A program made the position numbers and the translations under genes. A stretch of 64,000 bases of DNA, from NCBI RefSeq assembly GCF_009674685.1, contig NZ_WKJI01000002.1:806001-870000 (forward strand). Direction: 5' to 3'. Shown here one piece after another: positions 1,214-23,659 of this stretch. Within the stretch, counting starts at the first letter, position 1; each line of letters starts with the position of its first letter. This stretch comes from Pedobacter puniceum (GTDB lineage Bacteria; Bacteroidota; Bacteroidia; Sphingobacteriales; Sphingobacteriaceae). The notes beneath the pieces are model-generated. The model saw only the letters and a list, made by a program, of their open reading frames with translations, had not been told where the DNA came from and did not search any database.

Positions 1214-1221
1214 ATTTTTAA

Positions 1222-1237
1222 TGTTTCACGTGAAACA
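1222..1237. other. parS: parS centromere site 1 (ParB/Spo0J binding palindrome)
   Basis: TGTTTCACGTGAAACA, a perfect 16-bp palindrome identical to the widely conserved bacterial parS consensus. ParB loads here and spreads to drive chromosome segregation and SMC loading. It sits 8 bp upstream of the mnmG start codon, in the mnmG leader. Its centre is 36 bp from that of the second site. Confidence 0.9.
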
Positions 1238-1257
1238 ATTCTTCTTTTTTATCTTCA

Positions 1258-1273
1258 TGTTCCACGTGGAACA
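1258..1273. other. parS: parS centromere site 2
   Basis: TGTTCCACGTGGAACA, a second perfect 16-bp palindrome. It is the variant of parS with C/G at positions 5 and 12, as in the classical Bacillus subtilis sites. It lies 13 bp past the stop codon of the ABC-F gene, so both sites share the 73-bp gap between that gene and mnmG. Two adjacent sites with different but both canonical sequences make chance very unlikely. Confidence 0.9.
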
Positions 1274-1286
1274 TGAGTATTTTTTG

Positions 1287-3152
1287 TTATGCGAGTTCTG
1301 ATAATTCTAACCAACGCATAGATTTTTCATCTAGTTCGTTTTGTTTTTCCTCAATTAAGTGTGAGGTTTTGATAATCTCATCTGGATTAGAAATGCTATT
1401 TAAGCTATCTGTTAAACTCTTGATATTTTGTTCTAAAACCTCTATTTCATTATTCAAGGCTTCAAGCTCTTGCTTCTCTTTAAAAGTAAGTTTTGCTTTT
1501 TCTTTAGCAGGAGCGGGGCTAGCGGTTTTTGATTGTTGTTTTTTAGCTTGCTCTTTTTCTAATTGTTTAAGTATTTCTTGCTCTTCTCGGTAAGAAGAAT
1601 AATTACCATTATAGATTCTTATTTTACCATTGCCCTCTAATATGAAAAGCTGTTCGGTTAGTTTATCTACTAAATATCTATCGTGTGAAACTAAAATTAA
1701 AACACCCGGATAATTTTCAAGAAACTCTTCTAAAACATTTAGGGTGTCAATATCTAAATCATTAGTAGGCTCATCCAGTATTAAGAAATTTGGATTTTTA
1801 ATTAACACCTTCATTAAGTGTAATCTTTTCTTCTCGCCACCACTTAATAAGCTTACAAAGCCATGTTGTTTCTTGGGCGGGAATAAGAAAAGTGTAAGAA
1901 GTTGAGAAGCTGTAATTGTACTTCCATCTGCAAGGGTAATATACTCGGCAATATTCTTTACAACATCAATAACACGCTCATCTTCTTGGAAGCTTAAGCC
2001 TGATTGGTGGTAATATCCAAAAACAGTAGTCTCACCTTTTTTAATAGTTCCTGAATCAGCTTTTAATTCTCCGGTTATAAGATTTAAGAAAGTGGATTTT
2101 CCAGTTCCGTTTTTTCCGGTTAAACCTATTTTATCACCTTTCTTAAAGGTGTAAGAGAAATCATTGATGATAGAAATGTTGTTAAATGTTTTATTGATAT
2201 GTTCTATCTCTAATATTTGATTTCCTTGTCTGCTAACTTTTACTTCTAGTTTTACCTGTTCTCTAGCTCCATTGCCTTTAGACCGCTCCTCTAAATCATA
2301 AAAAGCATCTATTCTGGCTTTAGATTTTGTAGCTCTTGCTTGAGGCTGTCTTCGCATCCATTCTAGTTCCTTTTTAAGCAGGTTTCTGTTCTTAGCTAAA
2401 GTAGCTTGGTCTGCAGCATCTTTTTCTGATTTCTTTTCTAAATAATAAGCGTATTTGCCTTTATATGAAAAAACCTGACCATTGTCTAACTCAATAATTT
2501 CATTACAAACATTATCTAAAAAATAACGGTCGTGGGTAACCATTAAAATGGTTTTTCCGCCAGTATTTAAGAAACTCTCTAACCACTCAATAGTATCAAT
2601 ATCTAAATGGTTGGTAGGTTCATCTAATACATAAACATCGGGTTCATCTATCAATAACTTAGCTAAACTTAACCTCTTTTTTTGTCCACCAGAAAGGTTA
2701 GATATTTTCTGATGTAAATCATGAATGCCTAATCTTCCAAGAATGGTTTTTATTTGATGTTCGTATTCCCAAGCATTAAGATTGCTTAACTCTTCTGTAA
2801 GTTCGTTTATCTTGTCTAAATCTGGGTTTTCTTCTTCTAAAAGCTCTTCGTACTCTCTAATAATTTGTTGCTGCCTATTATCTAAGCTGAAAATAAAATC
2901 GCTGATGCTGGCATCGGCACTAAATTTTGGGTCTTGTTCTAAATAACCAAATCTGATATCTTTAGCCTTTACTACTTTTCCTTCGCTAGGTAATATTCTT
3001 TCTGCTAACAATTTCAAAAGGGTAGATTTTCCGGCACCGTTAATACCTACTAAAGCTACTCTTTGTCCTTGTTGTATGCCAAAAGTTAAATTTCTGAAAA
3101 GCCAATAATCGTTAAAGGCATGACCTAATTGTTCTGCTGATACTATACTCAC
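1287..3152 (-). CDS. uup: ABC-F family ATPase, Uup-like
   Basis: Soluble ABC protein with two nucleotide-binding domains and no membrane segments; ABC-F proteins act on the ribosome or on DNA intermediates. Walker A of domain 1 is GINGAGKST at residues 36-44, with LSGGQ and LDEPTNHLD following; domain 2 has GKNGTGKST, LSGGEKKR and LDEPTNDLD. An inter-domain helical linker rich in K and R (including MRRQPQARATKSKARIDAF) separates them. The last ~90 residues form a charged coiled coil after a proline/alanine linker, the arrangement typical of Uup rather than EttA. Its start overlaps the stop of the upstream oxidoreductase gene by 4 bp (ATGA), so the two are probably co-transcribed. Assignment to ABC-F is firm, to Uup itself likely. 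Confidence 0.9.
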   Translation of the reverse strand: MSIVSAEQLGHAFNDYWLFRNLTFGIQQGQRVALVGINGAGKSTLLKLLAERILPSEGKVVKAKDIRFGYLEQDPKFSADASISDFIFSLDNRQQQIIREYEELLEEENPDLDKINELTEELSNLNAWEYEHQIKTILGRLGIHDLHQKISNLSGGQKKRLSLAKLLIDEPDVYVLDEPTNHLDIDTIEWLESFLNTGGKTILMVTHDRYFLDNVCNEIIELDNGQVFSYKGKYAYYLEKKSEKDAADQATLAKNRNLLKKELEWMRRQPQARATKSKARIDAFYDLEERSKGNGAREQVKLEVKVSRQGNQILEIEHINKTFNNISIINDFSYTFKKGDKIGLTGKNGTGKSTFLNLITGELKADSGTIKKGETTVFGYYHQSGLSFQEDERVIDVVKNIAEYITLADGSTITASQLLTLFLFPPKKQHGFVSLLSGGEKKRLHLMKVLIKNPNFLILDEPTNDLDIDTLNVLEEFLENYPGVLILVSHDRYLVDKLTEQLFILEGNGKIRIYNGNYSSYREEQEILKQLEKEQAKKQQSKTASPAPAKEKAKLTFKEKQELEALNNEIEVLEQNIKSLTDSLNSISNPDEIIKTSHLIEEKQNELDEKSMRWLELSELA

Positions 3153-13698: not shown

Positions 13699-13722
13699 GC
13701 TTAGAATGGAAGCTTTTTTAAT
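13697..13722 (+). terminator. Possible weak terminator after trmD
   Basis: AAGCTT, a 7-nt loop, then AAGCTT followed by TTTT. The stem is only 6 bp, so read-through to rplS is plausible. Confidence 0.35.
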
Positions 13723-13822
13723 TGATGAACCCAAAAAATTAATTATTTTTTCTTTTTTTGAGATTAAATAAATTGCAAATCTTCAAATAAATAAGCCCGA
13801 TTTTAAATAGAAAACAAGCTAA

Positions 13823-13943
13823 CAGGCTCATCTACAGTTGGTATTGCCTGCGGATGTAGATAAGATGTTAATTGTGGAAAATTTTAATTATGTTTTTTAT
13901 TATCAAAAATTATCCCTAATATTGCACTCCGAAATTTCGGTGC
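13823..13943 (+). promoter_or_regulatory. Structured segment in the rplS leader (pseudoknot-capable, plus a hairpin)
   Basis: The 286-bp trmD-rplS gap has no gene. It contains CAGGC (13823-13827) and GCCTG (13846-13850) interleaved with ATCTACA (13830-13836) and TGTAGAT (13855-13861), the pairing order of an H-type pseudoknot. A second hairpin, CCGAAATTTCGG inside a flanking GCA/TGC pair, lies at 13924-13943, 41 bp before the start codon. Ribosomal-protein leaders often carry such autoregulatory structures. Whether this stretch is transcribed as the rplS leader is not shown. Confidence 0.35.
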
Positions 13944-13984
13944 GGTTGGTATTTATCTCAATCGTAATTTAACAGCATAAAATC

Positions 13985-23086: not shown

Positions 23087-23659
23087 ATGTCTTCTCATCA
23101 TATTATCCGCGAAAAGCAAGAACCAGCCTTGTTTATTTTAAACATGAGTGGCTTTGATGAGGAATACTTAGGGCAGTTGTTAGAATGGTCTCCAACGGTT
23201 ATTGTACATGCTGCTATTTATGACCATGTGGTTTCTTTAGGCATTAAAATAGATGTTGTGGTAAGCAAAGAAGATGTTTCTTTTGCGCTTCAAGAGCATA
23301 TAAAAATTATTCCTTGCGGCGATGATGATGTGACCACAGCTGTATTAAAATATCTGGTTGCGCATGAATATCCATCGGTAAACATCATTACCAATACTTT
23401 TTTAGCTAAAGATTATTTGTTTTTTGTTGATTATTTAGACTTGGTAGTTTTTGCTGATAGTAAAAAAATGTTTCCCGTGAAACCCGAATTTAGCAAGTGG
23501 AAACCAGCTCAAGAAAACATTTACATTTTGCAAGAAGCTGTTCAGTTAAGCACAAAAGGTCTAAATTTAATTTCAAATAACCATTATCAAACAGAGAAAG
23601 ATGGCTTTTATAGCTTATCTTTCCAACAACCTTTTATTTTTATAGCTGAAGATTTATAA
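23087..23659 (+). CDS. Thiamine pyrophosphokinase-like protein, active site apparently degenerate
   Basis: 190-residue protein. It matches my recollection of the fold and N-terminus of Sphingobacteriaceae thiamine-pyrophosphokinase-like proteins (SSHHIIREKQEPALFILN...EYLGQLLEWSPTVIV). Positions that should hold the catalytic and metal-binding residues are altered: the expected GDFDS/R-type loop reads VSKEDVS, and the region for the DKTD-type motif reads GDDDVT. Directly after thiE and overlapping the GNAT gene by one base, so a thiamine-related role is likely, but catalysis is doubtful. It could be a pseudo-enzyme, a regulator or a neofunctionalised copy; a lineage-specific variant of an active enzyme is not excluded. 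Confidence 0.55.
   Translation: MSSHHIIREKQEPALFILNMSGFDEEYLGQLLEWSPTVIVHAAIYDHVVSLGIKIDVVVSKEDVSFALQEHIKIIPCGDDDVTTAVLKYLVAHEYPSVNIITNTFLAKDYLFFVDYLDLVVFADSKKMFPVKPEFSKWKPAQENIYILQEAVQLSTKGLNLISNNHYQTEKDGFYSLSFQQPFIFIAEDL

Follow-up and report, generated by a model that had tools for sequence, protein, structure and literature searches.

Bacterial chromosomes carry parS sites, but why would two of them sit in the short gap just ahead of mnmG (gidA), and what would they do there? The question arises in a stretch of 64,000 nucleotides from Pedobacter puniceum (contig NZ_WKJI01000002.1, positions 806,001 to 870,000), here called the window.

The two palindromes are best read as a chromosomal centromere (parS), where ParB would be loaded near the origin and which is inherited together with mnmG. 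Going by sequence comparison, we give this reading a probability of roughly 93%. Why mnmG is the partner is a separate matter, on which the possible accounts fare less well.

If the reading is true, mnmG would serve to find the centromere in many Bacteroidota, in place of dnaA or parAB. Origins could then be placed more easily in draft genomes, for which dnaA can be a misleading guide. The reading would also make the old puzzle of why mnmG/gidA stays near origins testable.

The parS pair and its predicted ParB partner

The sequence-only reading described two perfect parS palindromes, 36 bp apart from centre to centre, in a 73-bp gap before mnmG. Both the coordinates and the perfect match hold: the two 16-mers are exact palindromes with 0 mismatches to parS. 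The gap directly adjoins the mnmG ATG, at 1213 on the minus strand. The features are listed in Table 1.

Table 1 Features around the parS pair, in window coordinates.
Feature	Position	Strand	Remarks
parS site 1, mnmG-proximal	1222..1237	.	TGTTTCACGTGAAACA; -9 to -24 from mnmG ATG; exact match
parS site 2, distal	1258..1273	.	TGTTCCACGTGGAACA; exact match
mnmG leader, both sites inside	1214..1286	-	73 bp, ABC-F stop to mnmG start; ORF coordinates
mnmG (gidA), 5' part, 404 codons	1..1213	-	cut by window edge; Pfam GIDA E 1e-166
ABC-F type ATPase gene, upstream, same direction as mnmG	1287..3152	-	Pfam ABC_tran (2 stretches), ABC_tran_Xtn, ABC_tran_CTD

At up to two mismatches the window contains 3 parS matches, where shuffling gives a mean of 0.05; none of 100 dinucleotide shuffles of the window reached three or more. 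The genome as a whole (3.90 Mb, 10 contigs) has no exact parS copies besides this pair, so there is none of the scatter that the sequence-only reading had counted as evidence against itself. With up to two mismatches, 9 places are found (the pair and 7 more) versus 4 for a reversed control pattern, which means that two-mismatch places are near background. Five of the 7 extra places are on contig C2, which also holds the pair.

Two such places deserve mention. Window positions 23469-23484 hold a parS-like 16-mer with 2 mismatches, within an ORF and probably background. Another two-mismatch site is found ~7.1 kb away from the pair, in the direction of mnmG (G000:C2:800125-800140, locus L005, in this genome, and G013:C1:3090911 in a relative). 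Its sequence and distance are identical in the two species, and it may be a weak secondary site.

The sequence-only reading also depended on a parB gene, and the genome turns out to have adjacent genes for a ParA of 267 aa and a ParB of 303 aa. This ParB is the single above-cut-off match to its family, and is on contig C4, not on the contig with parS. It has the Pfam domains ParB_N, HTH_ParB and ParB_C, and the GERR motif. All 60 genomes of the relatives set described below, this one counted, have a ParB above the cut-off.

Noc is a related protein that goes with a related 16-bp site, NBS. PMC7383237 ties the specificity for parS versus Noc sites to R173/G201 in ParB and Q173/R201 in Noc. Aligned to PDB Noc chains, the ParB of this genome reads KNRST and SMGHARAL versus KGQST and TERHARAL in Noc. 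Residues 173 and 201 are thus R and G, against Q and R in Noc; the numbering is that of Caulobacter, mapped by motif onto the aligned Noc chains in a mapping of our own. On these residues, a Noc protein with an NBS site was ruled out. Position 184 is a lysine, as in Noc, and PMC7383237 puts lysine or arginine there in about 28% of ParB. The ParB encoded here is the predicted cognate of the parS pair.

We infer that ParB binding, spreading and segregation take place at these sites. ParB made from parAB on another contig would bind both palindromes, close as a CTP clamp and spread across the origin region. ParA would then act on the ParB complex, perhaps along with Smc-ScpAB, and the newly replicated origin would be segregated and organised. 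ScpA is present in the genome, so the loading of Smc-ScpAB by ParB is possible.

All this resembles the chromosomal ParABS systems of B. subtilis, C. crescentus and P. aeruginosa, which use the same 16-bp palindrome in few, origin-proximal copies, and the ParA here is canonical and the ParB of the CTPase type. The points of agreement are the consensus palindrome, few and clustered copies, the domains of parA-parB and residues R173/G201, with the origin position taken from relatives. What differs is that parS abuts mnmG here, and that in single-contig relatives it is far from parAB and usually also from dnaA.

parS beside mnmG across Bacteroidota

parS directly beside mnmG is the usual arrangement in the Bacteroidota genomes sampled. 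The comparison used a relatives set of 60 genomes, a phylum sample of 158 genomes (the present genome being in both) and 80 titled loci. These share some genomes and are not independent sets. A further 40 distant loci were drawn from genomes with exact parS. All genomes compared belong to Bacteroidota.

By title, the 80 loci are chiefly from Pedobacter, Mucilaginibacter and their kin, which we take to be Sphingobacteriaceae; some titles give only an order or phylum. The closest titled mnmG is that of a Pedobacter glucosidilyticus MAG, at 98%, in a comparison that possibly leaves out records of the genome itself.

In the 600 bp 5' of mnmG, every one of the 80 titled loci has one parS or more when 2 mismatches are allowed, and 78 of them have two or more. 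Of the remaining loci, L212 is cut by a contig end, and in L259 the second site is further out, at -1255. With a limit of 1 mismatch, 166 sites fall in this 600-bp stretch and a single site in the rest of the loci.

In the relatives set, 39 of 60 genomes have an exact parS, while the reversed control pattern occurs 0 times in all 60. An mnmG match is found in 38 of the 39 (one a fragment), and parS lies within 600 bp of an mnmG end in 36 of these 38. The exceptions are G056, where the distance is ~1.2 kb beyond the mnmG 3' end, and G043, where it is 90 kb.

The phylum sample gives a similar picture. Exact parS is present in 117 of the 158 genomes and the control pattern in 1. In 108 of the 117, an exact parS lies within 600 bp of mnmG, at the 5' end, the 3' end or both. 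For 81 genomes this was determined from listed positions, with mnmG ends placed as if every mnmG were 1,880 bp long, and 73 of them have parS within 600 bp. Counting exact sites only, parS is at the 5' end in 33 of these, at the 3' end in 12 and at both ends in 28. In the remaining 8, one distance is within 15 kb, one is 25.5 kb, and 6 genomes, three of them of one genus, have parS and mnmG on different contigs.

For the other 36 genomes the loci were fetched, and 35 have an exact parS within 600 bp of mnmG. In G105 the exact parS is ~5 kb from mnmG, and sites with 1 mismatch abut the gene. Over the 117 genomes this makes 9 exceptions: in two, parS is within 15 kb of mnmG, in one it is 25.5 kb off, and in 6 it is on another contig.

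That leaves 41 of 158 genomes without an exact parS. A search at 1 mismatch covered 39 of these, leaving out G154 and G169, and found parS in 31 (57 places), against 8 places in 7 genomes for the reversed control. By our reading of the positions, such a site is within 600 bp of mnmG in 28 of these 31 genomes, but not in G094 (another contig), G060 (1.6 kb) or G033 (far, with 2-mismatch sites at mnmG).

The genes around mnmG are less constant. Neighbouring ORFs were called mechanically, so some may be spurious, and were clustered by BLAST. Among the 40 distant loci, 37 have a parS with up to 1 mismatch abutting mnmG, and the gene next to mnmG in these 37 belongs to any of 22 ORF clusters on the upstream side and 11 on the downstream side. 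ABC-F is within three genes of mnmG in 76 of the 80 titled loci. A small ORF directly upstream of mnmG is present in 26 titled loci, and in all 26 the sites are still within 600 bp of the mnmG start. Since flanking genes vary and the sites stay, what parS constantly goes with is mnmG itself and not the larger gene neighbourhood.

The literature matches listed hold no description of such a parS-at-mnmG rule, at least in the parts that were available; the parS survey of Livny et al. (2007) is outside that scope and may note it.

Some loci have further sites. In L156, L157 and L165, and in genomes such as G118 and G163, mnmG is bracketed, with one parS ~20 bp before the start and another at or just past the stop. 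The loci L167, L171, L186 and L267, all from one distant family, have a second parS-like group ~5 kb beyond the mnmG 3' end, which brings the stretch to six or seven sites with no more than 1 mismatch.

Skew and the origin region

The sequence-only reading took the parS pair to mean that the window is close to oriC. In the genome itself, dnaA and parB are on contigs other than that of mnmG and parS. In single-contig relatives, mnmG does lie near the origin indicated by GC skew in G013, G002 and, weakly, G024, with G033 too noisy to tell.

In G013, sampled GC skew is negative from ~1.35 to 2.9 Mb and positive elsewhere, except in samples near both switches. A contiguous analysis of 2.915-3.275 Mb gives a broad valley in cumulative skew at ~3.0-3.19 Mb, with its minimum near 3.135 Mb. 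mnmG and parS are at 3.084 Mb, inside this valley and ~50 kb from the minimum. The opposite switch falls between ~1.1 and 1.35 Mb, and the antipode of mnmG is at 1.157 Mb.

In G002 the skew switches at 3.57-3.71 Mb, with mnmG at 3.576 Mb and one discordant sample at 1.86 Mb. The skew of G024 is consistent with an origin near mnmG, but the signal is weak. The skew of G033, a genome without exact parS, does not place the origin. Judged by skew in these relatives, the parS pair would be in the origin region, the origin of this genome presumably being in the same place as theirs.

The skew itself calls for some care. At four-fold sites in G013, its sign is mostly opposite to that of the overall skew and follows the coding strand. 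Because the skew tracks gene orientation and the four-fold sign is mostly reversed, the signal speaks of orientation no less than of mutation. Skew in this group thus reflects gene orientation.

Neither dnaA nor parB is generally close. The distance from dnaA to mnmG is ~0.77 Mb in G013, 1.06 Mb in G002 and 1.0 Mb in G024, with 16 kb in G033. From parB to mnmG it is ~1.06 Mb in G013, 1.37 Mb in G002, 1.12 Mb in G024 and 0.30 Mb in G033.

An origin away from dnaA is not new. PMC10197239 describes a parS cluster at ori in gut bacteria, Bacteroides caecimuris among them, and shows that such clusters mark an origin which is not always at dnaA. As here, parS and GC skew were used together to place the origin. 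Unlike here, gidA and mnmG do not come up: the main text of that paper has 0 occurrences of either name.

DnaA boxes offer another way to look for oriC. The trmD-rplS intergenic region of the window (13699-13984) has two DnaA-box-like 9-mers at 1 mismatch. The same trmD-rplS region in G013, near 3,070,919, is the only place in 360 kb with four such 9-mers (up to 1 mismatch) in 500 bp. A cluster of the G013 type was not found in the window. As a candidate for oriC, ~13 kb from parS, the DnaA-box cluster is weak, given that it is not reproduced here.

Accounts of the link with mnmG

Under the centromere reading, parS would be passed on with mnmG, whether at one end of the gene (5' or 3') or at both, and kept when other neighbours change, probably ever since an ancestral origin gene cluster. 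The origin of this linkage can be debated, and simple inheritance is the account that we find somewhat better than even. It holds that parS already sat at mnmG in an ancestral mnmE-mnmG-rsmG cluster at the origin, and that this short-range linkage was never broken.

The distant loci fit the decay of such a cluster: rsmG adjoins mnmG in 27 of the 40 and mnmE in 9, while neither was found within three genes of mnmG in the 80 titled loci. gidA is moreover a recognised origin gene, named in PMC2099444 among those that tend to be near origins, though its passages on gidA/gidB do not link parS to gidA. What inheritance explains less well is that the end, number and spacing of the sites vary, and yet they mostly stay within 600 bp. 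Passive linkage would not obviously force that.

Functional coupling is the other account, and an unlikely one. The sequence-only reading had proposed that bound ParB could occlude mnmG transcription. More generally, ParB might tune the transcription of mnmG, or mnmG transcription might shape ParB loading, either of which would link segregation to tRNA modification. The turnover of ORF clusters around the abutting sites in distant loci agrees with this, as do the sites that stay close when a small ORF intervenes. So does the proximal parS, which in many genomes is centred ~16 to 28 bp ahead of the mnmG start codon. There is a precedent as well: according to PMC7022226, P. aeruginosa ParB represses genes behind the intergenic sites parS3 and parS4.

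The same paper, however, has it that in B. subtilis the loss of Spo0J is without effect on genes next to parS. For the P. aeruginosa gidA promoter region, unpublished data cited in PMC3909081 indicate that in E. coli neither ParA nor ParB regulates it. The genomes sampled also supply counterexamples. Several families have 3'-end sites only (12 of 73 genomes, by exact sites), which are unable to block mnmG initiation and argue against a simple block of this kind. L277, L278 and L285 lack 5' sites even at 2 mismatches.

The leaders speak against coupling as well. TAnnTTTG is a promoter motif, and in the last 100 bp before mnmG in 78 leaders it was not found as a consistent element. It occurs 13 times there versus 3 on the other strand, so that only a minority of leaders has it.

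That the palindromes work at the RNA level, as hairpins or as terminators ahead of mnmG, and not as DNA sites, is very improbable. The leader has a folding energy of -20 kcal/mol (z -4.5), but any palindrome folds strongly, the sequence is the parS consensus, and on the mnmG strand neither palindrome is followed by the U run of an intrinsic terminator. Base variants were counted in 240 sites of 120 loci, where some genomes appear twice. An inner variant that allows U-G pairing outnumbers its reverse complement by 36 to 19 (sites with intact outer bases), which would favour a hairpin, while at the outer positions the pair-breaking C1/A16 outnumbers the pairing T1/G16 by 22 to 6 (sites with C5/G12), which does not. 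An RNA leader or terminator as the main function was rejected on the missing U run, the folding and these counts. Scans of the window gave 0 matches for Rfam at gathering thresholds and 0 for tRNAs.

A more speculative idea, rated slightly below coupling as such, is that parS and mnmG form one functional unit in Bacteroidota, with ParB loading and mnmG expression interdependent, and with the pairs in Sphingobacteriaceae placed on a preferred helical face for ParB cooperation. This touches on the spacing of the paired sites. In the titled relatives the spacing favours steps of ~10.5 bp, with a period peak at 10.5-10.6 bp. The untreated Rayleigh p is about 4e-6 for 78 pairs, for a phasing test that was devised after the spacings had been seen.

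Not all distances behave alike. Some 10.5-bp signal is also present in control leader distances, namely between proximal site and start (z 5.4, for distances of narrow range) and between upstream stop and distal site (z 4.1). It was not found in the distances from upstream stop to proximal site or from upstream stop to start. Outside the family, 42 spacings, an incomplete and hand-collected set, have no such phase in common with it (p 0.42). Where nearest relatives differ in spacing, the changes gave no coherent phase, in a comparison of low power.

In a jitter test, p ranges from 0 of 500 to 0.002 after like pairs are removed, and is 0.048 if each spacing is counted once. Simulation on the mnmG tree gives a p of 0.0072 (1382 runs kept of 4000), and 0.135 at the lowest fixed rate. 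With one pair per mnmG-identity cluster, p is 0.0025 or lower. Helical phasing of the parS pairs within the family is suggestive.
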